Below, in pieces: positions 6,125 to 50,463 of a stretch of DNA of 64,000 nt. The position numbers were made by a program, and so were the translations under genes. Position 1 is the stretch's first letter. The number at the start of each line of letters is the position of its first letter. The stretch is taken from NCBI GenBank assembly GCA_001939945.1, contig MOEB01000011.1, positions 1-64,000 of the forward strand, written 5' to 3'. The stretch comes from Aerophototrophica crusticola. GTDB taxonomy: Bacteria; Pseudomonadota; Alphaproteobacteria; Azospirillales; Azospirillaceae. The notes beneath the pieces were generated by a model. It saw only the letters and a list, made by a program, of their open reading frames with translations, did not search any database and had not been told where the DNA came from.

Positions 6125-6274
6125 ATGCTGGGCCATACCCTGTACGCCAAGCAGCTGAACCTGGAGCCCCGCTGGACGCGCCAAAACACCCGCGGCACGA
6201 GCCGGGGCGACGGTCTGTTCGGGATGGTTTTGCGGATGTTGGTCTCGGCTTCAGTCGTAAATGGACGTGGCTAG
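6125..6274 (+). CDS. Small ORF running across the left transposon end (hypothetical, altered C-terminus)
   Basis: A 49-residue ORF preceded by a strong Shine-Dalgarno (AAGGAGG at 6111-6117, 7 bases before ATG). No family is recognised. The reading frame crosses the 5-bp duplication at 6238-6242 and the left transposon terminus at 6243, so its last 11 or so residues (VSASVVNGRG end) are encoded by the transposon. Joining 6242 to 19226, the inferred pre-insertion sequence, gives an ORF ending MVLRMLGLR at a TGA: 42 residues in all. Insertion therefore probably only swapped the C-terminal tail. The ribosome binding site is the main support; it may instead be non-coding. Confidence 0.45.
   Translation: MLGHTLYAKQLNLEPRWTRQNTRGTSRGDGLFGMVLRMLVSASVVNGRG
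6238..6242. repeat. 5-bp target-site duplication GTTGG, left copy
   Basis: GTTGG immediately precedes the left terminus at 6243 and is repeated directly after the right terminus at 19221-19225. Five-base duplications are the rule for Tn7-like insertion. Confidence 0.8.
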
Positions 6275-6500
6275 GCTGAATCGGGCCGAAAGGCGAAGGG
6301 TTGCTGTAAGGAAATTCTGAGGGTTCGTGTTAGAAAACCGTCATTTCCGCAGAGTTCACATAAGTAATCCAGCACCTCTGCCCAGCCGGCACCTTACCCA
6401 GCTGGTACGGCGCTGCCTGCCCGATTGACTACTCCCGCATAAACCTTTGACCGACAAGGCACCAGCCCTCCCAGAATTCAGCGAAGCTGGAGCCCGCACC
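6243..6500. repeat. Left transposon end with repeated TnsB-like sites; no gene before 6501
   Basis: The terminal repeat (6243-6264) contains TTCAGTCGTAAATGG at 6250-6264. Further inward come GTGTTAGAAAACCG (6327-6340) and CACATAAGTAATCC (6357-6370). They share a GT(A)-AAA-CCG/TGG core with sites in the right end. The segment GTTCGTGTTAGAAAACCG matches GTTCGTGCGAGTAAACCG of the right end at 15 of 18 positions. No convincing gene is seen between 6275 and 6500. Confidence 0.7.
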
Positions 6501-6683
6501 ATGGAAACCACCTGCGCCCACTGCCGCTACTGGGACGGCCACCCCGACCACCGCCGCGGCACCTGCCGCCAAGCCGCGCCGCGCGCCCATGTCACGGGAG
6601 TCGGTGCCGAGTTGGATGTACAGGCGATCTGGCCGCTGACGAGTGCTGATGATTGGTGCGGACAGTATCGGGAACGACAATGA
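6501..6683 (+). CDS. Small cysteine-rich protein (CxxC, unknown function), transposon cargo
   Basis: A 60-residue protein from ATG 6501; an in-frame TTG at 6447 would add 18 residues. It has four cysteines in the pattern CAHCRYWDG ... GTCRQAAPRA ... WPLTSADDWCGQY. Two close cysteines at the N-terminus, one in the middle and one in a C-terminal DWCG box suggest a small metal-binding or disulfide fold. Similar short proteins occur widely in phages and mobile DNA without an assigned role. It is the outermost gene of the left cargo, alone and not in an operon. Function unknown. Confidence 0.6.
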   Translation: METTCAHCRYWDGHPDHRRGTCRQAAPRAHVTGVGAELDVQAIWPLTSADDWCGQYRERQ

Positions 6684-6720
6684 ACTTCACGCGCCTTAAA
6701 ACGCCAGGCAATTAACATCA

Positions 6721-6889
6721 ACGTTGCAGCGGTAGCCTGAGGTGGGCGGCCTTGGCGATGGCTTGATGGGCCCCTCGCCATGTCGACCAGGTTTTAGGCA
6801 GGGCCCGCTCGTCCGGCGCAGGGCGTCCTCCAGCACCCAGGTGCCGTAAACGCTGTCGGCCTCCGCCCAGGCGAACGGCTCCCCCGCCG
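6721..6889 (-). pseudogene. IS701-type transposase remnant, inverted partner of 13805-13972
   Basis: Read on the minus strand this stretch encodes, with interruptions, GEPFAWAEADSVYGTWVLEDALRRT-like sequence. That matches the region around the second catalytic aspartate of IS701-family transposases, where GVPFAWV-DSVYG is typical. It is near-identical in inverted orientation to 13805-13972. The frame is broken and no full ORF or terminal repeat is visible, so this is a dead fragment. Confidence 0.65.
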
Positions 6890-7086
6890 CAAAGGCCCAG
6901 TGCAGCTGGCCCGCGACCTACCCAAAGCGGCAAAATGTTTCACCAGAAGGCGGAGGTCGATGCCAACCCGGCATCGCCCCGGGCTGGCGGGGGCGCCGGC
7001 TATTGCGGGGGGCAAAGACAGTGGCGCACAGGAACGTCGGCCCCGCCACGCAGGAGGCGCCAATCCCGGGAGACGCTCCCTCATGC

Positions 7087-8880
7087 TCAGCTGGCGACCA
7101 CCTCGAGCAAAGAATAATCATGGTCGCGAGCCTCTCGGGCCACGAATTCTCCGAATGCAGCTAGCATCTGGTTTGATAGAGGCTCAATGGCCCGCGATAC
7201 ACGCGTGACCGGATATGTTATGGCGCCCTTGGAGAACGAACCAAGAAACCGTAAGCTGCTAGACATCGCCAGACTTGGCATCCGCCACTTTCCAAACTCT
7301 TTCGCTGCATCGGCGCCGTGGCGGCGCTCGAAATCCTCGACTTCGCGAATAATCTTAGAATATCTGCTTTGCAAAAGGCCTGCTCTCTTTACCCAGGACA
7401 GATGATAAAAGGCATCAGGGTCTGGAGATTTGTCTTTCTCGACCTTACAGGCACCATCATCATTGAGGACACTTAAGTCTAGAACTTCTAGATTGGCAAC
7501 TGTTGCCTCGCTGAATCTCACTATTGCTTGGAGATCGCCGCCCGAATTGACATGAGGCAAACTGAAAAAATTGACACCCTTCTTGTCTTCAGGCGTTGTC
7601 GACACATCAAGCATTGTGAGCGGCGCCAGAAACGCTATCTTAAAATTGTTCTCCCTACTCCGCTTCCCGTCCTTGCGCACCATCAGGTCACAAGGTTGGC
7701 CAATCAGAACATACCTTTGAGTGTCGGCGCCACTGCCCACCTCAAAAATATCGCCGTTCCTGACAGGCTCATGGCAGGGATTAATATTTCCTCCGTCGTC
7801 GAACAACTCGTCATGGCGAAGCTTTCGGAGGCGAACCAGCGAGTGATTGGTTCCCCCACGATCCACGTCGGCAATCGCGCGCGCCTGCTTGGCACTGTCC
7901 TGCATCTTCCTGCGCCGGTCCTGCGTGAGGAAAGCGCTTCTCGCGCTTGCCCGGTGGAGGATGAGGTAAACGCGCTGAATAGTTTCGATTTCAGCTACAC
8001 CGTCCTTGTCTGAAGACTTGAGGACAATGTGCTCAAAGTCGATTGGGTCGATGTCCCGGAACGAGTCCAGCGCACTTTTCAGTGCAATCGCGAAGTTCTC
8101 CTCAGCAACTTCTTTTATCTCTTCGCAGTATATATTCAACACTGTCCTTCTGATAGAACGGAAAAAATTCTCCCCTGCTCGAACATTCTTTTTTGAGAGA
8201 GCCATGAAGTGTTTCAACTTCAGCCCCGCTTCATTATCATTCGCAAGTTTGCGCCATTTTCCAATCTCATCATTTGCTTCAATAGTGTGAGACAATATAC
8301 CACAAAAAAAGTTCTTCCCGAATTTTTCCGGATGTCTTGAAACAAGACTGCGAATGATGTCCACTCCTGTCCGGAAGGTTCTTGCAGAAGGCAATGTGGC
8401 CGTGCCTAGTTCCTGGTCGAACAGGAACAACGTGCGGGACTCATGCGAACACGAGCCTAGGTAGCCGTCAGCTGCGCTTTCCCATTCAGCGGGCGTCAAC
8501 CTAGCTAGGTGTATGTTCTCGGGCAGCCATGCCTCAACCTGGGACAGTACCGCCGCATCACTCTCGCCGTCGGTCAGATCAGCTGTAAGGGCGGCCACGG
8601 TCTTGAGCTGGTCGGGCGTAGCCTCGCTGAGCGCGCGCAGTAGTTGGTCAGTCCAGTTCTCATCCGGCTCGTCAAAGGGAACTGATGACAGTATGGCACG
8701 AAGCTTTTGCCTCCGTCCCTCGTCGCCTTCTTGGGACAGAAAAACCCGTGTCACGTCGGACGGTCCAGGGATCCGCTCATACTCGTCGTCAACGATGACG
8801 ACGGTCTTGATCTTGAGTTTTGTGAACAGCTCGCCAAGCTTCTGACGGCCCTCTATCCACTTATCCGTCTCAGCAGTCAT
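7087..8880 (-). CDS. Receiver-like protein of unknown function, third gene of the cargo module
   Basis: 597 residues; the start ATG at 8880 overlaps the upstream stop by 4 bp (ATGA), implying coupled translation. The N-terminus looks like a response-regulator receiver: beta-1 with an acidic cluster (KTVVIVDDEYERIPG, D31/D32/E33), then LFLFDQELG with a candidate phospho-acceptor D155, and a following FFCGILSHTIE strand. About 110 residues are inserted between the acidic cluster and D155, far more than in normal receivers. The remaining 390 residues match nothing I recognise. They include a YVLIGQPCDLMVRKDGKR segment around residue 390 and a charged helical C-terminus. No DNA-binding or nuclease motif is evident. 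Given its partner with a kinase-like ATPase, it may be the signal acceptor or effector (inference). Confidence 0.8.
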   Translation of the reverse strand: MTAETDKWIEGRQKLGELFTKLKIKTVVIVDDEYERIPGPSDVTRVFLSQEGDEGRRQKLRAILSSVPFDEPDENWTDQLLRALSEATPDQLKTVAALTADLTDGESDAAVLSQVEAWLPENIHLARLTPAEWESAADGYLGSCSHESRTLFLFDQELGTATLPSARTFRTGVDIIRSLVSRHPEKFGKNFFCGILSHTIEANDEIGKWRKLANDNEAGLKLKHFMALSKKNVRAGENFFRSIRRTVLNIYCEEIKEVAEENFAIALKSALDSFRDIDPIDFEHIVLKSSDKDGVAEIETIQRVYLILHRASARSAFLTQDRRRKMQDSAKQARAIADVDRGGTNHSLVRLRKLRHDELFDDGGNINPCHEPVRNGDIFEVGSGADTQRYVLIGQPCDLMVRKDGKRSRENNFKIAFLAPLTMLDVSTTPEDKKGVNFFSLPHVNSGGDLQAIVRFSEATVANLEVLDLSVLNDDGACKVEKDKSPDPDAFYHLSWVKRAGLLQSRYSKIIREVEDFERRHGADAAKEFGKWRMPSLAMSSSLRFLGSFSKGAITYPVTRVSRAIEPLSNQMLAAFGEFVAREARDHDYSLLEVVAS

Positions 8881-11432
8881 TTCTTACCCATCCCTTCGGG
8901 AGCCGCGCCGGACAAATCCATCTGGAACACATAGCGTCGCCCAAACGAGTTTCGGCGGTGAAGCAGTACCAGAGTTCCGCCGAGCGACTCCAAAATCTGA
9001 CTACAGATGAACAGTCCCAAGCCCCGTCCTTCGTTCCGCGGCTTCAACGTTACGAACGGTTCGAACAAGGTATCCTCCACTGCCGGATCCACACCAGTTC
9101 CACTATCCCATATCTGTACCATCATAGGGCTATAAAGAACATGAATGCAACCTGGCGTGCCGCCCGCCGTAGCCAAATTTTGCCTAACCCAATATTCAGA
9201 GTTCATTATCAAATTATCAAACACTTGCATGAGCTTGCCACGGTTCGCGTTAAGTTCAAAATTTTCACTCTCCGAGGAAATATGCAAGACAAGTTCCGAT
9301 GCCTGCCATCTCTCATCGTGATAATTCTTGATATCTGCCACAAAACTTGCAATATCGAATCTTTCGGTTACATCACGTTTGTATCTCAGGGATGGCGATA
9401 AGTGGCTTACTTGGCGAGAAAGTGCGTTCGCGGAGGCGATAACGTCCATGGCGTATAGACGGAGTTCGACGTTTTCCGGCTTTGCTTTCTGCGCCTTGTT
9501 CATGGCGCCCTTTGCCCGGCTCACAACCCTATCGGCTATGTTTTCGATTTCATGGGTCAGCGCTTCCGCGATCAGGCCCAGGCTCGCGAGTTCGCTGAAA
9601 TCGGTTATTCTCTGCTGCAACATCGCAATGCGGGGCGTCACGTGCTGGGCCAAGGCCACGAGTTGTTCCGCCTGAGGCCTCAAGGAGGCGGCGTCTGACA
9701 AAGCCGCACGGGTCTGAGCCAGTGTTGTCTCCAAGTCAGCCATCAAGGCGTGTAGCCTTTCGGGGTCCATCCCAAGCAGTGGTCGCTGGCGGATGTCCTC
9801 CACCAAAGCAGACACCCTTGCCTGCAGAGGCTGCACCTTGGCTTGAACAGCTGCCGCCGAGGAAGAAAATCGGTCCAGATGACCAGTGGCGGCGGACGCG
9901 AATTCAGTCATGGCTGAAGCGTCTAGCAAATCAACTGGCGTTGGCAAACACTCAGCCTTGAAGGCTAAATATCCGCGCCTTACCCATTCGTGAAACTGAT
10001 TAATCACCGATACAGCATGAGAGTGGATTTTGAAAAAGTTTCGGGAATAGGGATTGTCGATGAAACCTTCTCTGTCTGTCTTCTCACGTAAGCTTCGGTT
10101 ATGCTTCTCGGATATCAGGACGTAGCCGAGCGTGTTGTTTGGCCTCAACCCATACCAGGAGCTGCCGCTAGTTTGGGCGGCGCCAAGCTTCAGCCAGTCG
10201 TTTTGGTCTACCCCATAAGGCCGGACTCCAAACCCGTCCCGGAAAACCTTGACGCCTGCATGAATTTTCACCAGGGATCTGAGGGTGCTGTCAGATAGAG
10301 TGGAAACATCACGCATGCCGCCGGCGCCTAAGTTGCGCAGCGAATACTCGGCGAATTCGGATCGAAATGGTCCCGGGTCGGCAACGATGACGTCTTTGGC
10401 ACCCCTACTGTCGGAAACATCCTCCGCCAGGCTCGGTTTCAAAGACGCCAGCGCGACCTCATAGCTGAAGCTCAAAAAATCAGGGCGCCCGCCTTCATAG
10501 CGGTAGCCAACAAATGGCGCCTTGGACTTCCAATGGCTGAGAAAATCGAAGAACCTACGCCCGGAGTCCGACAAAACGTTTTTTTCAAAAAACACATCAT
10601 CCGAGGCATTCGCCTGGAACTTTGCAAGCCTTACCCGACCATCTAGCTCAATTCTGCCACTTGAAAAGCGTAGGCTGTAGACCGCTACAGCCGCTGCCCT
10701 GACCTCCCTAGACAAGGGGGCGAGATCCACCGGCCTGTTGTTTATGGTTACCGTCACCGAGAACGGCTTAATCTCCTCGTAGGGCGCCACTATTTGTGCC
10801 AGCTTGTTGCTAAGGGTGACGAGATCATCGCCAACCCAAACGGCAGGGTTCTTCAGACCCGATATTACGAGGGTTGCCCCATGTGGCCGCTTAAAAATTT
10901 TTGGCTGCTTGTGGCGGACCTCGACCTCGGTAAGCTTGGTGCCGGTACCGAACGAATCCCAACTGAAGCCGACATGGTTGACCTCCTCGGACCCCAACTT
11001 CCTCGTAACGATTTCTAAGTTTGCACCCAATTTTTGTGTGCTAAGGCGCCCGAGGCCCTTCTCGCCCAATGGGGTCCGCTTCTTTCGCTTTGTGACGACA
11101 CCAAGATCCTTCAGCTTGCCTTTCTCTGAAAGCGATATGGTTAGCCAGCCCCTACGCAGGTCGGCGAGACCCATGCCGTCGCCATCATCCTCAATCTTGA
11201 TGTAGCCTTTGGCGTCAGGGAAATAGGTTTCATGCTCGTCCGGACGGCCGTCAGTACTTATCTCGACCCTCACGTAGCTGGCATCGGCATCATAAGAATT
11301 CTTTATGAGCTCAACCAGGGCCGTTACTTCGTCGGATACCAGCTCGTCGCCAAGCTGGCGGACCACGTTGGCGCTGATGTCGAACCCGAGCTTCTCCCCG
11401 GCAGGCTGGGGGGACGCCAATTCCGGGGTCAT
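8877..11432 (-). CDS. Double GHKL ATPase: Hsp90/MutL-like N-terminus fused to a histidine-kinase-like C-terminus
   Basis: 851 residues. The N-terminal Bergerat fold has ELIKNSYDAD (41-50, N box), EDDGDGMG (81-88, G1) and PLGEKGLGRL (121-130, G2), the pattern of MORC/Hsp90-like sensors. The middle part is unassigned. Residues about 500-610 are helical and probably coiled-coil. From about 612 a second module appears: an H-box-like helix ALTHEIEN with H627, an N box (VFDNLIMNSE, 737-746), G1 (WDSGTGV, about 776) and G2 (RGLGLFICSQ, about 803), as in histidine kinases. No membrane segment is present, so it is cytoplasmic. It starts 1 bp after the methyltransferase gene and overlaps the receiver-like gene by 4 bp. 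A phosphorelay from H627 to the receiver-like partner is plausible but unproven. Confidence 0.88.
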   Translation of the reverse strand: MTPELASPQPAGEKLGFDISANVVRQLGDELVSDEVTALVELIKNSYDADASYVRVEISTDGRPDEHETYFPDAKGYIKIEDDGDGMGLADLRRGWLTISLSEKGKLKDLGVVTKRKKRTPLGEKGLGRLSTQKLGANLEIVTRKLGSEEVNHVGFSWDSFGTGTKLTEVEVRHKQPKIFKRPHGATLVISGLKNPAVWVGDDLVTLSNKLAQIVAPYEEIKPFSVTVTINNRPVDLAPLSREVRAAAVAVYSLRFSSGRIELDGRVRLAKFQANASDDVFFEKNVLSDSGRRFFDFLSHWKSKAPFVGYRYEGGRPDFLSFSYEVALASLKPSLAEDVSDSRGAKDVIVADPGPFRSEFAEYSLRNLGAGGMRDVSTLSDSTLRSLVKIHAGVKVFRDGFGVRPYGVDQNDWLKLGAAQTSGSSWYGLRPNNTLGYVLISEKHNRSLREKTDREGFIDNPYSRNFFKIHSHAVSVINQFHEWVRRGYLAFKAECLPTPVDLLDASAMTEFASAATGHLDRFSSSAAAVQAKVQPLQARVSALVEDIRQRPLLGMDPERLHALMADLETTLAQTRAALSDAASLRPQAEQLVALAQHVTPRIAMLQQRITDFSELASLGLIAEALTHEIENIADRVVSRAKGAMNKAQKAKPENVELRLYAMDVIASANALSRQVSHLSPSLRYKRDVTERFDIASFVADIKNYHDERWQASELVLHISSESENFELNANRGKLMQVFDNLIMNSEYWVRQNLATAGGTPGCIHVLYSPMMVQIWDSGTGVDPAVEDTLFEPFVTLKPRNEGRGLGLFICSQILESLGGTLVLLHRRNSFGRRYVFQMDLSGAAPEGMGKK

Positions 11433-11433
11433 T

Positions 11434-12828
11434 TCATTCTCCGTGCCTTAGCACAAGGATGTGCTCGCGCTTCATCGTTTCGCTGCTCGCGTTTCGGTTG
11501 GGCATACGCTTGTGCCGAATAACCCGCGTGAGTTCAGCAACGTAGGTGCAGCCCCTCGCCTCCAGAAGTTCCGTAATGATCTTGTCAGTAGGGATCGCGC
11601 ATCCACTGATGTTTCGGTTGCCTACCGTCCAGATGAGATAGGCATCCTGCTTCATCACCGAAAGCATGGAGTCGATTGCTAGCGTCACGTCTGCGTAGAA
11701 GGACATCAACCTTTGCCTGCCCGTGCCGCCGCTTGGTAGCTTTGCCCAAGCTTTCTTCAGCGCCCGACTTCCCTCCAGAAGCCTGCTAGGATCAGGTCGC
11801 TTCGCCGCCACCTTCCCGCCACCCAAGCTCCTTTGATCAATCTCGCGAGTAGACTTCAAGAAGTCGGGCGAAGCGCCCTCGTCTATGTCGGCAAGATCTA
11901 TCCAATTCAGAGGCAAGTAGGAGTGCTGGCCATAAGTTACGGTCGTCACATTGTCGCCGTAGGGAGGCGAGGTCATCATGAGGTCGAATTTCTTCTCGCT
12001 GCCCCATATGCCGCTCATCGTTTCCGTAGTGTCGGCGAGCTTCACCACCGTATCTCGTAAATACTTCCCAGCAGTAACGAACCCATTGTCATTAAGAGCT
12101 GCGCGGAAGCCTAAAAGCGATTTTGCGTTCTGTGCGGCCAGGCGTTCAAACTCGTCGATGGGGGACTGGTCCCTGCGATTGATGTCTTCCTCGGTACGAA
12201 CATGCAGCTTGTAAGTCGACGTCCGGTCATTGCTGGTCAGGCGAATGGTCTCTGCGAGGGTTGTCCATAGAAGCCTGCGCATCCACAGATTTGACTCGTT
12301 CCTGATTGATCGCCGCAACGCGGACAACTCAAGGGCGACTTCTTGCTTGAACCACTTTTCTCTGTTCGGCATGGCCGTTTCAACGACCTGGGATTTGTCG
12401 CCACGGGCGTCGGAGACTGCGCGCCGCACCTTCTCCGCGATGTCCGCATCCACCTCCCTTGCGGTCCGAAGCCGGCTGATCAGTACCGCCAGTGGGTTGA
12501 TGTCGTTTCCATGTACCGACATACCCAAGTGCATTCCGCTCACTAGGGACGTACCCGAGCCGCAAAACGGATCATATAAGGATATGCCTTCACGCTGGGA
12601 ACACACCACTGCCTCTAGCAGCCTACGCTGAACGATGGGGACCATCATCGCCGGGTATTGGAAAACCCGATGCCCGCTATCGGTACGGTCCCTGTTCGGT
12701 GGAGACCAAAGGTGCTCGTCGTCCTGCTTCTCGCGGAGCAAACTGCGGATGCGGAAATCGATTTTTCTGAAATCCTCCTTGACTGACACTGCCCTAGATG
12801 GCCCTAAATATTTGAATTGGAAATTCAT
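11434..12828 (-). CDS. DNA methyltransferase (TSPPY type), first gene of the cargo module
   Basis: 464 residues. The S-adenosylmethionine site is LYDPFCGSGTSLVSG (84-98, motif I), followed by GNDINPLA (108-115). The catalytic motif IV is MMTSPPYGD (284-292), as in N4-cytosine/N6-adenine amino-methyltransferases. The order I before IV is visible; no target recognition domain can be named. No restriction endonuclease gene is adjacent, so it is not a simple restriction-modification pair. The first gene of a tight operon with the double GHKL ATPase and the receiver-like protein, it probably marks self DNA or acts as a sensor (inference). Codon use and GC are clearly lower than in the flanking chromosome. 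Confidence 0.9.
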   Translation of the reverse strand: MNFQFKYLGPSRAVSVKEDFRKIDFRIRSLLREKQDDEHLWSPPNRDRTDSGHRVFQYPAMMVPIVQRRLLEAVVCSQREGISLYDPFCGSGTSLVSGMHLGMSVHGNDINPLAVLISRLRTAREVDADIAEKVRRAVSDARGDKSQVVETAMPNREKWFKQEVALELSALRRSIRNESNLWMRRLLWTTLAETIRLTSNDRTSTYKLHVRTEEDINRRDQSPIDEFERLAAQNAKSLLGFRAALNDNGFVTAGKYLRDTVVKLADTTETMSGIWGSEKKFDLMMTSPPYGDNVTTVTYGQHSYLPLNWIDLADIDEGASPDFLKSTREIDQRSLGGGKVAAKRPDPSRLLEGSRALKKAWAKLPSGGTGRQRLMSFYADVTLAIDSMLSVMKQDAYLIWTVGNRNISGCAIPTDKIITELLEARGCTYVAELTRVIRHKRMPNRNASSETMKREHILVLRHGE

Positions 12829-13191
12829 CTTGTTGAGTATCCAAAGGGTAATTTGAGCATTATTTCCATTTCGGCGCCACCACAGGAGGCCTAACAGACT
12901 TTAACAGGGAACTCGTGGTCAGGAAAGGACATATTCCCGCATCGGAGGTCCTTTGGACGGTGGCTGGGAGCCATCCACCGCCATAGGGTACGACCAAAGC
13001 CATTTCAGAGTACCGTTGCCAAAGCTGTGGCCAGCCCTCCCAGCGGGGACGGAGCATCATTGCCGGAGGAGCACCTGACGCGGAACGCTGTTGACAAATG
13101 CTTGTGACATTAATCTTCGTGGGAGGAACCCTGCCTTGCGGCGATCAGGGTTCGGTTTTGACTCGTCTCACTTGGCGCATGAGGAGGAGCG
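12829..13191. other. Promoter side of the cargo operon; no gene recognised
   Basis: 363 bp between the methyltransferase start and the small ORF at 13192. An open frame of 66 codons on the minus strand (12860-13060) has no ribosome site or recognisable product. In the plus direction a short stretch reads SEYRCQSCGQPSQRGR near 13005-13052, resembling a zinc-ribbon remnant, but the frame is not sustained. The promoter of the three-gene module must lie here; I see no clear -10/-35 pair. Confidence 0.4.
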
Positions 13192-13281
13192 ATGAATCAT
13201 CTGCACAATCCATCGGCGATAACGTCCTGGGCTTACAATGATCGTCTAAGGATCGCCTTTCAACTACTTCTATATTTATAA
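13192..13281 (+). CDS. 29-residue ORF or decayed gene start
   Basis: An ATG at 13192 follows a good Shine-Dalgarno (GAGGAGG at 13181-13187). The product is a short peptide with a hydrophobic end (IAFQLLLYL) that stops at 13281. A one-base shift near 13270 would let the frame continue as YIYKEPDLLIRRECRKR and on to 13333. It is therefore either a very small peptide or the broken 5' part of a gene. No homology is recognised. Confidence 0.3.
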   Translation: MNHLHNPSAITSWAYNDRLRIAFQLLLYL

Positions 13282-13308
13282 GGAGCCGGACTTGTTGATA
13301 AGGCGAGA

Positions 13309-13614
13309 GTGCCGGAAGCGGTCGACAAGATGTTGACAACTTGGGCGAATCGGAAAAAAGGTAGGCCAATGCGGACAATCACTTTAAAAGGCAGAGCTAT
13401 AGCGCTCCTCGGCGATCTTCCGGCATACGATTCAGATGAGCCGCATGATGAGAACCTATCCGCCAAGATGAAGGATTATGGGAGCGCGCTCATCGAGGAA
13501 GGGTTTTCGGTGATCCTGCCGTGCGGGACAGGTGGGTGGAGATATAGGAGGACAATCTCCGGTGAGGTGCTTTTGAGAGATACAGGATATTTTTCCGGCG
13601 GAGTACCGTACTAA
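13309..13614 (+). CDS. Hypothetical protein, possibly truncated by the IS701 remnant
   Basis: Up to 101 residues from GTG 13309; ATG at 13330 or 13369 are alternatives. The core reads GRAIALLGDLPAYDSDEP then KMKDYGSALIEEGFSVILPC. It is a mixed hydrophobic/acidic sequence with no signal peptide and no motif I can name. It ends 41 bp before the IS701-derived sequence, so the 3' part may have been lost. Lower GC agrees with the neighbouring cargo. It is transcribed away from the methyltransferase operon and could be a cargo-associated small regulator. Function unknown. Confidence 0.4.
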   Translation: MPEAVDKMLTTWANRKKGRPMRTITLKGRAIALLGDLPAYDSDEPHDENLSAKMKDYGSALIEEGFSVILPCGTGGWRYRRTISGEVLLRDTGYFSGGVPY

Positions 13615-13655
13615 TTGGTCCGGTCGCTTGCGCCGGTGGAGTCGCTTTCCGCACT

Positions 13656-13972
13656 TTGCAGTTCACCGCCTGGGCCTGTTTCAGGAGCATGCAGAAGGCC
13701 TGGGCCGAGCAGCCGGACCGCCTGGCCGCGGCGCGCATGCCGCAGGGTACGGCCTTCGCCACCCCGCCCGCTATCGCCGCGGGCATGCTGCGCCGGGCCG
13801 TCACGGCGGGGGAGCCGTTTGCCTGGGCGGAGGCCGACAGCATCTGCGGCACCTGGGAGCTGGAGGACGCCCTACGGCGGACGAGCCGGCCCTGGCCATC
13901 ACCTTGGTCGACATAGCGACGGGTCCATCAAGCCATCGCTAAGGCCGTTCACCTCAGGCTTCCGCTGCAACT
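13656..13972 (+). pseudogene. IS701-type transposase remnant, larger copy
   Basis: The plus frame 13656-13916 gives 86 residues, including KAWAEQPDRLAAARMPQGTA and AGEPFAWAEADSICGTWELE. These correspond to the central part of IS701-family DDE transposases (W-DP-R--A--P, FA-KP, AGVPFAW--DSVYG). The start, the catalytic C-terminal half and the terminal repeats are absent. The tail after the stop (to 13972) is also shared with the inverted copy at 6721-6889. It lies just beyond the tnsC stop codon. Confidence 0.65.
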
Positions 13973-13982
13973 TTGATGCTAG

Positions 13983-14882
13983 TCACCGCGCCGCTCGCCG
14001 CCTCTCGCTGGGCATCACCCACGGCACCTTGTCCAGCGTCTCCATGTCGATCACCTCGCGGCCGGTCTGGATGGCTACCTCGGCGGCGATGGACATCAGC
14101 TTGCAGGTTTCGCCGGTCAGGCCCTCGGCCATGCGGTGGATGCGGCTGACCAGGTCCTTGGAGCGGAAGGAGCTCTCCTCGCGCAGCTCCAGGCTCTTCA
14201 CGAAGCGGGAGACGAAGAGGCCGTACTCGGCGCTGATGGTCCAGCGGGGGATGCCGATCGGCTCGAAGCGGTTGCCCAGCTCCGGGCTGGTCTGGAAGAC
14301 GCGGACGGCGTCCTGGGTGCCCATGGCCACCACCGGGATGCGAAGCTCGTTGGACAGGCTCTTCAAGCTGTTCAGCACCATGATCCGCGAGTCGGGCTTG
14401 CCCACCAGCAGGTTGTTCACCTCGTCCACCACCAGCATGCGCGTGCCCACGGCCGGCAGCAGGTGCAGAATCTGGTCCCACTTGCCCTGGGCCCGGGTGG
14501 AGGTGCGGTAGGGCGCGTCCAGGGCGCGCAGGATGGAGTCGTAAAGGCCCACCAGGTCCGCGTAGGGCGGGGAGTGGCAGTAGACGACGGGCAGCTTGCC
14601 ATACTGCGGGTCGCCCTCCTGCGGGGTGACGTCGCGGATGAACTTCCTGGCCAGGGCGGTCTTGCCGTTGTTGGTGTCGGCGTAGATCAGGTTGCAGGGC
14701 GGCCGCGGCACCTCCGGGTGCTCGTACAGCCAGGCGAACCGGCGCAGGATCAGGCTGCCGGCCTCGTAGTCCACGTAGCGCGGGCTGCGGATGCGCAGCA
14801 GGCGGTGCTCCAGGTCCGGGGTGGCCGGGATCTCGAAGCCCAGGATGCCCTGGCGGGCGAACAGTTCCGGGGTGCTCACCAT
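13983..14882 (-). CDS. tnsC: TnsC/TniB-type transposition AAA+ ATPase
   Basis: 299 residues. Walker A is ADTNNGKTALARKF (from residue 68), the variant without the first glycine that is usual in TniB/TnsC proteins. Walker B is RMLVVDEVNNLL (148-159), with IPVVAMGTQDAVRVF as the sensor strand. TnsC-like ATPases polymerise on target DNA, couple the targeting protein (TniQ/TnsD) to the transposase and provide target immunity. The start overlaps the tnsB stop by 7 bp. It is the last gene of the tniQ-tnsA-tnsB-tnsC string. Confidence 0.92.
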   Translation of the reverse strand: MVSTPELFARQGILGFEIPATPDLEHRLLRIRSPRYVDYEAGSLILRRFAWLYEHPEVPRPPCNLIYADTNNGKTALARKFIRDVTPQEGDPQYGKLPVVYCHSPPYADLVGLYDSILRALDAPYRTSTRAQGKWDQILHLLPAVGTRMLVVDEVNNLLVGKPDSRIMVLNSLKSLSNELRIPVVAMGTQDAVRVFQTSPELGNRFEPIGIPRWTISAEYGLFVSRFVKSLELREESSFRSKDLVSRIHRMAEGLTGETCKLMSIAAEVAIQTGREVIDMETLDKVPWVMPSERRRAAR

Positions 14883-16852
14883 ATCTCCACCCCCTTGCTG
14901 ATCTCATCCTCGGGGAAGTCGAAGCTGTCGGACGGCGCCGCCGGTGCCTTGGCGGGGTTGTCCACCACGAGGGAGAGGTGCGGCTTGCCTCCCCTGCCCT
15001 TCCGGGGGGCCTGGGGCGCCGGCGCCGGGCCTACTGGGGCGGGCGGCGCCGCGGCGGTGATGCCGGGCGGGTCCAGGGTCAGGTCCTCCCGGTGCCGGCG
15101 CATCTCGTCCCGCTTGGCCCGCTGCCGGCGGACACGCTTCGTCTCCCGCTTGGCCCCGTCGGCGATCCGGTGCATGTCCTCGAACGCGGCAAAGATGGCG
15201 GCCTCGTCCTCCGCCTGCTTCCCCTGGCGTTCCAGCCAGTTCAGGGCCGCCTTGTATTCCCAGAGCGAGATGGAGGGCCGGCCATAGTCCCGGTACGGGA
15301 TCTCCACGTAATCCTTCAGCCCCGGGTCCAGGAAGTAGAGCTTGCTGATGTCCGTCGGGTCGCGGCGGACCTTGAACTTGCGCAGGCGGCTGCCCTCGCG
15401 GGACCGGACGTGCTGGGAGATCAGAGGGTCCCTGTACCAGATCTTGTCCCAGACGATCCCCTCCGGCTGCACCGTGCGCTCCGCGAAGGGCAGGAAGTCC
15501 AGCCGCAGGCGCCTTGGGTTGGCGATCGGGTCGGGCAGGCCGGTCGGCCGCTTCACCGTGCCGCCCCCGATGACGCCGTCATTCCAGCGGGCCAGGGGCG
15601 GCTGCTTGATCCCGTCATGGACCTTGTTGTGGTAGATGCCGACGATGAGGGTCAGCAGCCAGTGGCGCAACTCCGCCAGGGTCATGCAGGCCTTGCCGCT
15701 GGAGTCGTACTCGCCCCGTTTCTTGGGGTTGGAGAAGGTGGTTCCGGGCAGCGCGTGGATCTGCCCGCCCAGCGTGCCGCAGAGCCGCTCGATGTGGCCG
15801 CCATAGTGGGGCGTCTTGGGTGGGCGGAACTCGTAGAGGATGTCGTGCTCGTCCAGGGTGTCCCGGATCAGGTGGCTGCGGAAATCCTTGCCGTTGTCGG
15901 CGTGGACCATGCGGGGCTTGCCCCAGACCGGCCACTCCCCCTTAATCCCCAGCCGCTCCAGCTCCGCCTTCTTGTCCAGCATCCCATGGCAGAGGCAGAG
16001 CCCCACGGCGAATGCGCTCGGCCGGTCCAGGGACAGGTGGTAGCCGAACACCATCCGGCTGAACACGTCGATGGCCAGGGTCAGCCAGGGACGGCCGATC
16101 GGCAGACGCTGTTCCTCGTCCACCACGATGATGTCGAGGAGGGTGTGGTCGATCTGCACGACGGCCAGCGGGGCATCCGCGCCCGGGAACTCACCCTTCA
16201 CGGCGCCGAACTTGTCATGGGCGGCCTTCTTGCCCTGCCGCTTCAGCACCTTCTCCTGCGGTTCCAGCGCATCCAGCCGCGCCCGGATGGTCGAGGCATG
16301 GGGCTTGGGCAGCTTGGCGGCCCGGCAGCGCCGGTGGACCTCCTCGATCGTCCGCTGGCCATTCGGCTTCTGGTCGGTCAGGTAGAAATCCTTGATGACG
16401 CTGCTGATGACGGCCTCCACCTTCGGGTCCAGCAGCTTGGGCATCGGCTTGCCCCGCCGGCGGGGCGCCAGGTCGGACAGGAGCCGGCGGCCCTCGTAGG
16501 CCTTCATCCAGCGGTAGATGGTCGGGTAAGTCGTGCCGTGAGCCTCCGCCGCGGCACAGACCCGCTCATGGATCCCGGGCCCCTGGTGGGCCAGGAGCGG
16601 CTTGATGATGGAGAAGCGGCGCTTCGCCTCGGCTAGGTCGTCCGGGTGCAAGGCGTCCAGCAGGCGCCGCTCCGGGTTGGCGGAGGGCTTCGGTTCCGGC
16701 GCCGACAGCTCCCACACCGGGACGACATGCGGGTCGCCGCCGTTCGGGTCCTCCAGCAGCACGGAGGTGGCGGTCACCGCCTGCCCGACGCGGAAGATTT
16801 GGGACCGCCAGCGCACCAGGGACCCGGGCTTGTAGCTGATGCCGCCCGTCAT
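14876..16852 (-). CDS. tnsB: TnsB/TniA-type DDE transposase
   Basis: 658 residues. An N-terminal DNA-binding part has a helix-turn-helix-like stretch near 95-120 (THGTTYPTIYRWMKAYEG-like). It is followed by an integrase core with catalytic D235 (VVQIDHTLLD), D319 (MVHADNGKDF) and E355 (GGHIERLCGT). A Mu-transposase C-terminal beta-barrel and a basic, proline-rich tail that would contact TnsC follow. TnsB recognises the end repeats and joins the 3' ends to target DNA. Start ATG 16852 has a GGGGAGG ribosome site. All three catalytic residues are intact. Confidence 0.95.
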   Translation of the reverse strand: MTGGISYKPGSLVRWRSQIFRVGQAVTATSVLLEDPNGGDPHVVPVWELSAPEPKPSANPERRLLDALHPDDLAEAKRRFSIIKPLLAHQGPGIHERVCAAAEAHGTTYPTIYRWMKAYEGRRLLSDLAPRRRGKPMPKLLDPKVEAVISSVIKDFYLTDQKPNGQRTIEEVHRRCRAAKLPKPHASTIRARLDALEPQEKVLKRQGKKAAHDKFGAVKGEFPGADAPLAVVQIDHTLLDIIVVDEEQRLPIGRPWLTLAIDVFSRMVFGYHLSLDRPSAFAVGLCLCHGMLDKKAELERLGIKGEWPVWGKPRMVHADNGKDFRSHLIRDTLDEHDILYEFRPPKTPHYGGHIERLCGTLGGQIHALPGTTFSNPKKRGEYDSSGKACMTLAELRHWLLTLIVGIYHNKVHDGIKQPPLARWNDGVIGGGTVKRPTGLPDPIANPRRLRLDFLPFAERTVQPEGIVWDKIWYRDPLISQHVRSREGSRLRKFKVRRDPTDISKLYFLDPGLKDYVEIPYRDYGRPSISLWEYKAALNWLERQGKQAEDEAAIFAAFEDMHRIADGAKRETKRVRRQRAKRDEMRRHREDLTLDPPGITAAAPPAPVGPAPAPQAPRKGRGGKPHLSLVVDNPAKAPAAPSDSFDFPEDEISKGVEIW

Positions 16853-16874
16853 GGCGAAACCTCCCCGCAGATCA

Positions 16875-17516
16875 TCATGGGCTCCGTTCCCGGGGCAGGG
16901 TCAGTGGCGTGGTGGCGGCCACCGGCTGGTCGAGGTCGGCCGCAAGTTCCAGCCGTGCCACGAGCGTCCAGACGTCCGGCAGCAGGGCCGGGGCGCCTGC
17001 GGCACTCTCCGGGCCACTGGCAGCCAGCTCCCGCACCGTGAGCACCCGGGCCAACCGCACGGAGGCGATGAGCGCGTCCCGCCGGCCGGCAGGGACGGAC
17101 CTGTCCCGGTAGGGCAGCAGGAACTTCGCGTTCTCCAGCCGCGCGGTGCGGATCGCCTGTTCCGTCGCGACCTCGAATCGCCAGCCCATGTCGGCCGCAT
17201 AGGCCCGGGCCGCCGCGAAACGCGCCTCCAGCTCGCCGGCGAGGAGAGCCTTGTCGGTGGAATACTTCACCTCCACCAGCCTGGGCGGCCGGGCATCGCG
17301 GTAGGTCACCAGGAAATCCGGCACATAGCTGCCGCCCCCTGGCAGGCGGATGCGGACGGGCTGCTCCTCCAGCGTCGCGACAGCCAAGTCGAAACGCTGC
17401 AGCAGGGCGAAGTCGCGCTCCAGGGTGGACTCCACATCTACGCCCCGCCGGCCCGGCCCCATGGGCACCCGTCCCCCGACACTCCGATAGCACAAACCAA
17501 TCTTGCGAACGGGCAT
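16875..17516 (-). CDS. tnsA: TnsA-type endonuclease
   Basis: 213 residues from ATG 17516, which has GGAGG four bases upstream; a longer in-frame start exists at 17534. The restriction-endonuclease-like core has STLERDF (E33), YVPDFLVTY (D67) and LVEVKYS (E82, K84), matching the E-D-E/QxK pattern of TnsA. TnsA cuts the 5' strands at the transposon ends so that, with TnsB, the element is excised by cut-and-paste. The presence of TnsA separates this element from Tn5053/Tn402-type transposons. It lies 22 bp before tnsB. Confidence 0.9.
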   Translation of the reverse strand: MPVRKIGLCYRSVGGRVPMGPGRRGVDVESTLERDFALLQRFDLAVATLEEQPVRIRLPGGGSYVPDFLVTYRDARPPRLVEVKYSTDKALLAGELEARFAAARAYAADMGWRFEVATEQAIRTARLENAKFLLPYRDRSVPAGRRDALIASVRLARVLTVRELAASGPESAAGAPALLPDVWTLVARLELAADLDQPVAATTPLTLPRERSP

Positions 17517-17550
17517 ATACCCTCCAACCCCCAAGGGTTAATCACCCGTA

Positions 17551-18885
17551 TCATGATGTGCGTAAAGCGCTTCGCGTGCTTTCTTCGCGTGGCGCGGGAA
17601 GGTTGAGGCATTTGCGCAACAGACTATCCAGCCAGGGTCCCACGCCCTCTCCGGCGTTGTGGGCCGCGGCGCGGGCGGCTGCCTTCACCTCGGGCGACAC
17701 GCCGTCCAGCTTCCAGTACCGGCCCTCCCCCCAGCGCGCACCGTCGGTGGCAGGGTCGGCCAGGTCACTGATGGCCAGCAGCTTCGTCCCCATCAGGGCG
17801 ATGAGGTTCCGGTAGGTGCCGGGCCGGCCGGCGCCGGCGAGGACCTGCTTGGCGGCCAGAACCTCTTCTCGGTGTCCGGCCCGCTGCTCCCGGTCCAGGT
17901 GCCAGGCCACGGCGTCTGCCAGGGCGAAGGGCTGCCGGTCGCCATGGCGCTTGCGGATGTGGCTGCTGGCCAGCCCGACGGCCTTGCCGGCCGCGACGAA
18001 GCGATGGGGCCAGTCCTGCACCAGGTAGTGGGCCATGGCCAGCAGGATTGACCGCGGCCGGGGTGCCAGGTGGGCGATGTCCTTGACCCTGGGCACCGAC
18101 GCGGGCGGCAGGTCCAGGCCTGGCTCCCTCGCCGCCACCCAGCGGCGCAGGGCATAGGCGTGGGGGCCGCCGGCGAGGAGCCGCATCACGGCGGCCAGGA
18201 CGTCCAGGGCAGCGAAGGAATAGGTCGGGCCGTAAGCACCCAGGTCGACCCACCCCTCGCCCACAGCAGCCATCCAGGCGGCCTGGAGCGGGCCTGTGTC
18301 CACCGGGGGCGGCACCGATGCCCACCGCCGCGCGTCGCTGCCACAGGACCAGCAGCGGAAGCCAGAGCGGTTGTCCTGCTGGAGAAAGCCCAGCGGCTCG
18401 CCACAATCCCCGCAGCGGTCCACCAACAGGGCTCCGTGCGTGGCGCAGGTGGTGACGAAGGCCAGCCGCCAAGACAGCCTGAGGTGCGGCACCGGGTCGG
18501 TGGAGAGGCACTGGGGGCAGACCTGCTGCCCGAAGCAGCGTTTCCCGGCCTGACGCCCAGCAGGCGGGAGCCAGGGAAGGATGACACGGCCATCCGGGTC
18601 TTGCTCAAAGACCCGACCGGCCAAGCCTTGGAAGCTGGCAGCCCGGATCGCTTCAGCCTCAACCCCCGCGCCGTCGGACAGGGCGTGGATCAGGCCAGGC
18701 TCGGCGTGCCGGTCCAGGTCGGGGACGCTGTTGCCGCCCGCCGGCAGGCAGCAGCGGTAAAGGTCGCGCGGCCGGTGCCCATTGGCCGCGGCGACGCGGA
18801 CGAACCATGAGGTGAGCGATTCACCTGCAATCAGCTCCGGCCTGCCTGGCCACCGACCCGTTCGCCCCGCCATGCCAACCCCCAT
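17551..18885 (-). CDS. tniQ: TniQ/TnsD-type target-selection protein
   Basis: 444 residues. The N-terminal TniQ domain (LIAGESLTSWFVRVAAANGH, about 18-37) is followed by paired cysteines of a zinc ribbon (C123/C126, C147/H150, C158/C161, C178/C181). A helical C-terminal part contains helix-turn-helix-like stretches (KAVGLASSHIRKRHGDRQP). TnsD-like members bind a fixed att site. Given the insertion point beside tRNA-Phe, this protein probably recognises the tRNA-Phe 3' region (inference). The start may be 18885 or 18873; neither has a strong ribosome site. It is the first gene of the transposition string and lies next to the right end. Confidence 0.92.
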   Translation of the reverse strand: MGVGMAGRTGRWPGRPELIAGESLTSWFVRVAAANGHRPRDLYRCCLPAGGNSVPDLDRHAEPGLIHALSDGAGVEAEAIRAASFQGLAGRVFEQDPDGRVILPWLPPAGRQAGKRCFGQQVCPQCLSTDPVPHLRLSWRLAFVTTCATHGALLVDRCGDCGEPLGFLQQDNRSGFRCWSCGSDARRWASVPPPVDTGPLQAAWMAAVGEGWVDLGAYGPTYSFAALDVLAAVMRLLAGGPHAYALRRWVAAREPGLDLPPASVPRVKDIAHLAPRPRSILLAMAHYLVQDWPHRFVAAGKAVGLASSHIRKRHGDRQPFALADAVAWHLDREQRAGHREEVLAAKQVLAGAGRPGTYRNLIALMGTKLLAISDLADPATDGARWGEGRYWKLDGVSPEVKAAARAAAHNAGEGVGPWLDSLLRKCLNLPAPREESTRSALRTS

Positions 18886-19220
18886 CTGTGCGAGGCAGGA
18901 TCATGTATGCGGGCGCCGGGGCGCGTCCTCGGGGAAACAGCATACATCGGCATGCAGTTGAGGATGCCTGCCGCGGGAGCCGAACGCCGGGTGGCGGTAC
19001 CCAGGCTTTGCGGATCGTTCGTGTGAGTAAATGGATTCGGAGGGCGTCGTCATGCCCGTGCGCGCCAACGCGGCAAAACTGGCTTTCTTGCCGATCCGCG
19101 CTCGCTAAGCTGTTCAGATCGCAAGAAAATCGGGCGGCATGGAGAGTCGGTTTACTCGCACGAACGAGGCACCAAGTCCATTTACCAGCCGGTTTCTAGC
19201 AATTACGTCTGAAACCGACA
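18886..19220. repeat. Right transposon end with TnsB-like sites; no gene
   Basis: The outer terminus is at 19220. Inward on the minus strand come TTCAGACGTAATTG (about 19199-19212), CGGCTGGTAAATGG (19178-19191) and GTGCGAGTAAACCG (19148-19161). A further copy in the opposite orientation, GTGTGAGTAAATGG, lies at 19021-19034. The 17-mer at 19015-19031 is the inverse of 19151-19167 with one mismatch. No ORF is supported between 18886 and 19253; the tniQ promoter must lie here. Confidence 0.7.
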
Positions 19221-19225
19221 GTTGG
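19221..19225. repeat. 5-bp target-site duplication GTTGG, right copy
   Basis: Identical to 6238-6242 and directly adjacent to the right terminus at 19220. Confidence 0.8.
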
Positions 19226-19253: not shown

Positions 19254-19329
19254 TGGTGCCCAGGGGCGGAATCGAACCACCGACACGGGGATTTTCAGTC
19301 CCCTGCTCTACCAACTGAGCTACCTGGGC
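19254..19329 (-). tRNA. tRNA-Phe (GAA anticodon)
   Basis: Read on the minus strand it gives a complete 76-nt cloverleaf. The acceptor stem GCCCAGG pairs with CCTGGGC; the D arm is GCTC/GAGC. The anticodon stem-loop GGGGA-CTGAAAA-TCCCC carries anticodon GAA, and the T arm is GGTGG-TTCGATT-CCGCC. Discriminator A and CCA are encoded. Its 3' end lies 33 bp from the Tn7-like transposon, which was probably targeted to it. The gene itself is intact. Confidence 0.97.
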
Positions 19330-40398: not shown

Positions 40399-40474
<76 letters not shown>

Positions 40475-40498
40475 ACTTTGGCCGGGGCGGGATGGGGA

Positions 40499-40574
<76 letters not shown>

Positions 40575-40598
40575 ACTTTGGCCGGGGCGGGATGGGGA

Positions 40599-40674
<76 letters not shown>

Positions 40675-50118: not shown

Positions 50119-50463
50119 TCACTCGATCCCGGCCAGCACCGCCAGCTTGCCCCTGACCTCCCGCAGAACATCCACCGGCACCGCGGCGCCCACCGGGCGG
50201 ACGGGGCGGGCCAGTGTGTCGATGCTGCGGACATGGCTGGTCAGGATTTCCCCCTGGATCGGCAGCCCCTCCGGCAGGACGACGCTGGAGCCGAAGGGGC
50301 GGATGCGGGACGTGATGGGGCAGACGATGGCGAAGCGGCTGGCATCCCAGAACGCCGCGGGAGAGATGACAAGGGCCGGGCGGCGCCCTCCTTGTTCCCG
50401 CCCCGGGCGGGGGTCGAAGTCGGTCCAGACCAGATCACCCGCCTCGGGCCGGAACTCGCTCAC
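50119..50463 (-). CDS. mazF: MazF/PemK-type endoribonuclease toxin
   Basis: 114 residues from GTG 50463, which overlaps the antitoxin stop by 4 bp. The PemK/MazF core is AGDLVWTDFDPRPGREQGGR then RPALVISPAAFWD and VCPITSRI; the C-terminal DQVRSID-like stretch reads SHVRSIDTLARPV. MazF-type enzymes cut mRNA at short sequences. All conserved positions appear intact. Confidence 0.93.
   Translation of the reverse strand: MSEFRPEAGDLVWTDFDPRPGREQGGRRPALVISPAAFWDASRFAIVCPITSRIRPFGSSVVLPEGLPIQGEILTSHVRSIDTLARPVRPVGAAVPVDVLREVRGKLAVLAGIE

Follow-up and report, generated by a model that had tools for sequence, protein, structure and literature searches.

Contig MOEB01000011.1 of Aerophototrophica crusticola (source genome of 6.06 Mb in 328 contigs) carries a three-gene operon that joins a DNA methyltransferase, a histidine kinase with two GHKL ATPase modules, and a receiver protein. 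The operon lies at positions 7087 to 12828 of the window, by which we mean the whole 64,000-nucleotide stretch analyzed, and it is the sole cargo that we recognized in a Tn7-like element. Because the methyltransferase/kinase/receiver set is conserved over several phyla, a chance reading of these genes is ruled out. The explanation that we favor over its rivals, at about even odds, is that the trio is a mobile, modification-linked immune operon that restricts invaders through a two-component phosphorelay.

In such an operon, the methyltransferase would mark host DNA. The MORC/MutL-like ATPase, which stands in place of an ordinary kinase sensor and is probably an ATP-driven DNA clamp, would engage unmarked foreign DNA, and the kinase would then autophosphorylate on H627, from which the phosphate would go to D155 of the receiver. 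Phosphorylation would free the C-terminal Cys-Asp domain of the receiver, which might act on the invader or shut the cell down. Here, we infer the trigger (unmodified foreign DNA), the direction of signaling, and the role of the C-terminal domain as the effector. If true, bacteria would act on modification-based self/non-self decisions via a two-component phosphorelay; restriction would be joined to signal transduction, and MORC-like ATPases would gain a sensing role in bacteria.

Gene layout and catalytic residues

The initial annotation described the three genes as translationally coupled and lower in GC than the chromosome, and both descriptions hold. All three are on the minus strand: the methyltransferase gene (11434..12828; 464 amino acids, aa) is separated by a 1-bp gap at position 11433 from the kinase gene (8877..11432; 851 aa), which shares a 4-bp ATGA overlap (8877-8880) with the receiver gene (7087..8880; 597 aa). 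The GC content of this stretch is 53 to 55%, versus about 70% around it.

The first protein is predicted to be a DNA methyltransferase of the amino type. The generic PADLOC MTase_II models match it over nearly its full length (E 2.6e-79). Pfam UPF0020 matches it at lower significance (E 7e-7), and a Pfam scan gave no match to the C5 methylase family PF00145. Motif I, DPFCGSGT (residues 86-93), precedes the TSPPY motif that had been picked out at the outset (residues 286-290), and both are invariant in all 14 aligned methyltransferases. In a profile search of the PDB, the top match is a tRNA methyltransferase, followed at low significance by N4-cytosine and N6-adenine DNA enzymes. By models and motifs, the protein has the predicted activity of the methyltransferase component of a type II restriction-modification (R-M) system.

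The second protein consists of a MORC/SMCHD1-like ATPase, HisKA-like helices, and a kinase ATPase; the two Bergerat folds and the H-box histidine proposed in the initial annotation are thus borne out. The N-terminal GHKL ATPase (residues 17-236; 10725..11384, minus strand) contains a Pfam HATPase_c_3 match (residues 37-154; E 5e-16) and resembles restriction enzymes of the BbrUII/HgiDII type (NCBIfam NF050001; E 1.5e-19). The C-terminal kinase ATPase (residues 732-838; 8919..9239, minus strand) matches HATPase_c (PF02518; E 1.6e-15). Between them, H627 (codon at 9552..9554, minus strand) and E628 align to the H-boxes of ZraS and LvrB, and H627 is invariant in 13 of 13 kinases. The residues checked at both ATP sites are kept in the same number of aligned kinases, except for one Gly that is Ala in three of them. 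Foldseek matched the kinase model (pLDDT 71.5, pTM 0.50) best to the SMCHD1 ATPase module (E 3.4e-11), the ZraS kinase, MutL, and Hsp90, all reported without aligned ranges.

The third protein was modeled with a pLDDT of 82.1 and a pTM of 0.64. Its receiver domain (residues 24-230; 8191..8811, minus strand) was delimited from the secondary structure of the model and from conserved residues. It has five receiver-type strands (24-30, 124-128, 149-155, 191-197, and 226-229), with a large helical insert (40-118) after strand 1. In the model, D31/D32, D155, S/T197, and K230 lie at strand ends, where receivers hold their active site, and D155 (codon at 8416..8418, minus strand), which ends strand 3, is the predicted phosphoacceptor. 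Among the 16 aligned receivers, 15 span this domain; D32, D155, and K230 are invariant in all 15, position 197 is Ser or Thr in all 15, and position 31 is Asp in 14 and Glu in one. These residues and the modeled topology agree with the earlier description of the protein as receiver-like. An H-box histidine, kinase ATPase motifs, and the DD/D/T-S/K residues of a receiver are therefore all in place, which makes kinase and receiver a complete two-component pair.

Recurrence, carriage, and neighborhood of the operon

We searched genome contigs with an alignment of four receiver proteins and obtained 17 loci. In 12 of them, the methyltransferase, kinase, and receiver follow each other in this order, on one strand and as separate genes, and two plasmids, one from Rhizobium etli Mim1 and one from Hymenobacter monticola, also carry the trio. 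The initial annotation had named a lack of co-occurrence elsewhere as one ground for refuting its proposal, and these loci show the opposite. As for the other loci, L026, L037, and L039 are truncated close to the end of a contig, L032 has no kinase, and L033 is fused. In L033 (7640-11440), a kinase lacking its ATPase domain is fused in frame to the receiver, and in L032 (8414-10678), the methyltransferase is fused in frame to the receiver C terminus. We set these fusions aside as evidence of interaction because both look like internal deletions. Two annotations of relatives deserve mention. The receiver relative on the H. monticola plasmid (NZ_CP094538.1; L015 14560-16356) is annotated as a cytochrome P450, probably a misannotation. 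On Klebsiella variicola plasmid pBM374-1 (L017 4706-8271), a double-GHKL region, split into several short genes in the annotation, lies behind an N-6 DNA methylase (PF02384) and appears to be a disrupted relative that belongs with yet another, third class of methylase.

Among the hosts of the 17 loci are alpha- and betaproteobacteria, Aliifodinibius, Micromonospora, and metagenome-assembled genomes (MAGs) labeled as Armatimonadetes, Lentisphaerae, Holophagaceae, Planctomycetota, and Acidimicrobiia. Over 15 operons, the distance matrices of the three proteins agree closely (rho of 0.98, 0.93, and 0.95; Mantel p of 0.001 each), and the agreement remains within nine alphaproteobacterial operons (rho of 0.88, 0.83, and 0.87); the three genes have been inherited together. 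The distribution of the family is sporadic. The methyltransferase occurs in 4 of 385 genomes of the class (two with the operon, one with a distant relative whose partners were not seen in the 11 kb around it, and one with a contig-edge fragment). For the receiver, the count is 2 of 82 genomes from the order; for the kinase, it is 1 of 398 genomes in a sample of the phylum, with two candidate places scored in each genome.

This distribution bears on another explanation, namely, that the trio works as a two-component regulator of DNA methylation or of a separate R-M system. In that case, the kinase would sense the methylation or nucleotide state, and the receiver would adjust transcription or the activity of the methyltransferase without being an effector. 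In its favor, kinase and receiver form a complete pair, and a 2021 study of a related class itself proposes signaling that controls R-M systems (PMC8011034). However, Pfam scans found no known DNA-binding output domain in the receiver, and sporadic occurrence and a Tn7-like carrier are easier to reconcile with an accessory function than with the regulation of host genes. We consider a purely regulatory role unlikely.

The Tn7-like cargo status proposed in the initial annotation can be confirmed and delimited. Matching inverted ends flanked by a 5-bp target-site duplication, GTTGG (left copy, 6238..6242; right copy, 19221..19225), set the bounds of the element at 6243..19220 (12,978 bp). Besides the operon, it encodes the set of proteins that identifies a Tn7-like transposon, all on the minus strand: a TniB/TnsC-type ATPase (13983..14882; PF05621, E 2e-59), a TnsB-type transposase (14876..16852; PADLOC TnsB, E 4.3e-39, with Mu-transpos_C), a TnsA-type endonuclease (16875..17534; PF08722, E 3.3e-13), and a TniQ target selector (17551..18885; PF06527, E 2.7e-25). 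The 3' end of a tRNA-Phe gene (19254..19329, minus strand; ARAGORN and Rfam) lies 28 bp outside the right duplication and is likely the target mark of the element. One congener, G007, has an empty site: its AsmA gene, which is 53% identical to the AsmA left of the element, lies within about 200 bp of tRNA-Phe with no element between. Other congeners are uninformative because AsmA was not found in the short stretch compared. The trio also has TnsB relatives nearby in a Phenylobacterium MAG (L023) and in Caulobacter sp. Root655 (L030).

The remaining features of this region are side observations. Matches to a guessed transposon-end pattern were no more frequent than expected by chance, and the pattern was dropped. 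Within the transposon, inverted remnants that are 82 to 86% identical (6713-6915 and 13778-13981) bracket the operon, and a third, partial copy is present at G000:C30:3207-3385; by eye they look like a transposase fragment, and the sole frame scanned (13628-13942) had no Pfam match. Outside the transposon, the window holds a PemK/MazF-type toxin match (50137-50442, minus strand; PF02452, E 1.3e-18) and three tandem tRNA-Lys(CTT) genes (40399-40674).

Carriage by a transposon, and by plasmids in relatives, could also mean that the operon serves to stabilize the element. R-M addiction has a known layout of a methyltransferase plus an effector, which the operon would share; its loss, followed by dilution of methylation, would trigger self-attack and so keep the element in the population. 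Against selfish stabilization stand the defense genes found next to relatives, and the two ideas are compatible rather than exclusive. As the explanation of the operon, addiction seems very unlikely to us.

The neighbors in question came from a scan of 76 flanking ORFs (open reading frames) hand-picked from 153, leaving out L014, L015, L032, L039, ORFs at contig ends or distant from the module, and a few others. Flanking ORFs matched PADLOC models of Gabija, TmtA, PD-T7-1, PD-T7-5, DrmD, ThsB of Thoeris, DRT, and type II R-M (E<=1e-10, among the matches listed, which cover 25 of 125 matched model families; these are counts of families, not of ORFs). Two of the flank matches are to transposase TnsB. 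The control, made up of 33 ORFs located elsewhere in the window, matched a single model family, mad3, which was matched in the flanks as well. The defense-gene neighbors thus lend support to a possible defense role but are not proof of it.

Several observations weigh against an immune operon. The neighborhood control is small (33 of 34 ORFs) and draws on one genome only. The methyltransferase might work on its own as a marker with another purpose. A Foldseek search of the receiver against the PDB and BFVD gave no match at E<=0.001, and no nuclease or toxin fold was recognized in it. No recurrent fourth gene was found in the flanks, where any one gene accompanies the window family in at most 3 of the 20 regions compared; therefore, a classical restriction enzyme is missing. 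With no known nuclease fold in the three proteins either, the trio lacks the recognizable restriction endonuclease of a type II R-M system.

A C-terminal domain common to four receiver families

If the trio acts in immunity, the candidate effector would be the C-terminal part of the receiver. No Pfam family covers this protein (the 16 members matched 12 families, each in one member, with a best E of 0.0048). Beyond the receiver domain lies a putative output domain (residues 360-597; 7090..7803, minus strand) in which Gly376, Asp377, Gln395, Cys397, Asp398, Arg402, and Arg407 are invariant in all 16 aligned receivers, a pattern that would fit an active site or a tight binding site. A MazF/PemK-like output domain, prompted by a weak Foldseek match (rank 48) and inspection by eye, was rejected: against 22 PemK-family segments, one of which (L068) may be out of frame, residues 368-500 gave P values of 0.05 to 0.09, while an unrelated N-terminal control gave 0.012. 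Searches found no relatives of the receiver in viral contigs and none of its C-terminal part in phage records.

The same C-terminal domain is present in four receiver families that barely align as wholes: the window receivers, the PF19192 receivers, two Rhizobiaceae proteins (L016 and L021), and a Campylobacter plasmid receiver (L019). Their common pattern is Gly-x-[Ile/Val/Leu], a hydrophobic strand, and then usually [Gln/Thr]-Pro-x-Cys-Asp; when 22 of the 29 segments are aligned, Gly376, Cys397, Asp398, and a further Gly downstream do not vary. With hmmsearch, a profile of nine PF19192 proteins placed eight family proteins ahead of the top-scoring control ORF among 255 (E 0.55). These are the Campylobacter protein (E 1.2e-5), window-family members L031 (1.1e-4) and L035 (1.9e-3), the two Rhizobiaceae proteins, and three other members of the window family. 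The window receiver itself scored an E of 1.7, below the two best controls (0.55 and 0.85). Reverse searches were weak: the window-family profile found one PF19192 protein clearly (0.011), and the best match of a Rhizobiales profile was 0.024. Comparison of whole-receiver profiles of the window family and the PF19192 receivers was not significant. Compared by domain, the P values were 0.003 and 0.06 for the C termini, 0.008 and 0.17 for the N termini, and 0.24 to 0.8 for crossed controls, a result that is suggestive only.

A motif pattern also separates the families from controls, with the reservation that it was adjusted after the sequences had been seen: an initial version picked up 10 of 16 window-family rows along with 2 of 255 controls, and the final one recovers 28 of 29 family proteins, with 1 match among 255 controls and 1 among 5800 shuffles. 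A joint-profile search of 289 genomes, the only test on sequences that had played no part in defining the domain, matched eight, two of them with a known window-type operon. Of the remaining six matches, four adjoin a double-GHKL kinase (three PF19192-like receivers, so that three of the four useful matches are of this type, and one further type), one is a remnant whose kinase was not seen in the stretch examined, and one (E 8.5e-4) is probably due to chance. Among the four new kinase-linked loci, a C5 methylase is present in all three whose neighboring genes were scanned.

Two sets of loci illustrate the variety of these proteins. In L118 (5696-11971; G632), a C5 methylase and a double-GHKL kinase are accompanied by a 207-aa receiver ORF, a 141-aa Cys-Asp ORF, and Vsr, with the receiver and the output domain split over two frames. 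The 680-aa proteins on Rhizobiaceae plasmids (L016 8376-10418 and L021 7989-10031), annotated as hypothetical, adjoin a double-GHKL kinase; they have no Pfam match, a VDD start, and a PACDL motif, and no methylase is annotated in the stretches shown.

The C-terminal domain of the four families has no Pfam counterpart. According to PMC8011034, Response_reg_2 proteins have no further known domain, and the C-terminal domain thus appears undescribed in that study. From sequence comparison, it seems to be an output domain common to distant receiver families and new here. A profile of the domain, together with residues Gly376, Cys397, Asp398, Arg402, and Arg407, makes the class testable and easier to find. 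A broader proposal, possible but doubtful in our view, is that the Gly...Pro-x-Cys-Asp domain would be the phosphorylation-gated effector of a whole restriction-like class in which a kinase-receiver relay replaces the endonuclease and the methylase (C5, amino, or N6) is interchangeable.

Alternatively, the phosphorylated receiver might not act itself but serve as an adaptor that recruits or licenses a nuclease of the host or one encoded elsewhere, such as a Vsr-like enzyme. Vsr genes do lie beside some relatives (L055 and L118), as PMC8011034 reports for its class, and the lack of a recognized enzyme fold in the C-terminal domain would be expected of an adaptor. However, no neighboring gene recurs widely beside the window family, and the seven invariant residues from Gly376 to Arg407 look like those of an active or tight-binding site. 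We find the adaptor role distinctly unlikely and favor the receiver as the candidate effector of an immune operon.

Relation to known systems

No PADLOC 2.0.0 system model fits the set: the receiver has no match, the kinase has only partial matches, and the methyltransferase matches the generic MTase_II models. Detocs likewise signals from a kinase to a receiver that carries an effector; it is not known to have a methyltransferase or a MORC-like ATPase. No model named for Detocs was among the PADLOC matches listed for the three proteins, a negative obtained without a check that this release includes Detocs models. Literature searches, with most subscription papers outside their scope, recognized no experimental study of this combination of genes. 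A figure legend in PMC13092281 (2026) names HATPase and REC among the domains of predicted, unvalidated defense systems.

Two groups of restriction-related proteins resemble the N-terminal ATPase of the kinase. The BbrUII/HgiDII enzymes have a similar ATPase, but the resemblance is limited to the N-terminal part, at 70 bits against a cut-off of 550, and the window kinase has no restriction nuclease part. Their partner methylases also differ: M.HgiDII and M.BbrUII are C5 enzymes (PMC5867850), whereas that of the window is of the amino type. The paraMORC ATPases were described in R-M operons in 2008 (PMC2292703) and include the Shedu-type VcSduA, a paraMORC3-type GHKL ATPase that needs both its ATPase and its nuclease residues for phage defense (PMC12137116, 2025). 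They share with the window kinase an N-terminal GHKL ATPase beside DNA methylases and an ATPase-controlled defense; here, by contrast, a histidine kinase paired with a receiver replaces the nuclease or other C-terminal domain.

The closest relatives belong to the Response_reg_2/HEF_HK class (PMC8011034, 2021), in which kinases composed of HATPase_c_3, HEF_HK, and HATPase_c are linked to Response_reg_2 receivers and frequently have a C5 methylase as a neighbor. That study relates the class to R-M systems and paraMORC ATPases. Literature searches found no tested function for this class. In our own survey, PF19192 occurred in 8 of 299 genomes, and a C5 methylase adjoined the pair in all eight loci (upstream in seven and downstream in one). 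The window trio shares the layout of kinase modules around phosphoacceptor helices, the adjacent receiver, and the adjacent DNA methylase; the kinases are homologous over their full length (hhalign 100%, E 4.5e-52), and the receivers have the C-terminal domain in common. In contrast, PF19192 matches none of the 16 window-family receivers (E<=1) and PF19191 does not match the window kinase (E<=0.1), although each matches two control proteins of its kind; whole receivers do not align significantly, and the methyltransferase is of the amino type, not C5. Because the kinases are homologous over their full length while both Pfam models miss and the methylase class differs, sequence comparison places the trio as a sister branch of the Response_reg_2/HEF_HK class rather than a Pfam-defined member. 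The initial proposal of a new, DNA-modification-linked phosphorelay module therefore stands in part: we find a co-inherited mobile unit, located among defense genes in relatives, with the residues expected of a phosphorelay, but its composition is not new in kind. By these comparisons, the operon is a divergent branch, with another methylase class, of a kind already known since 2021.

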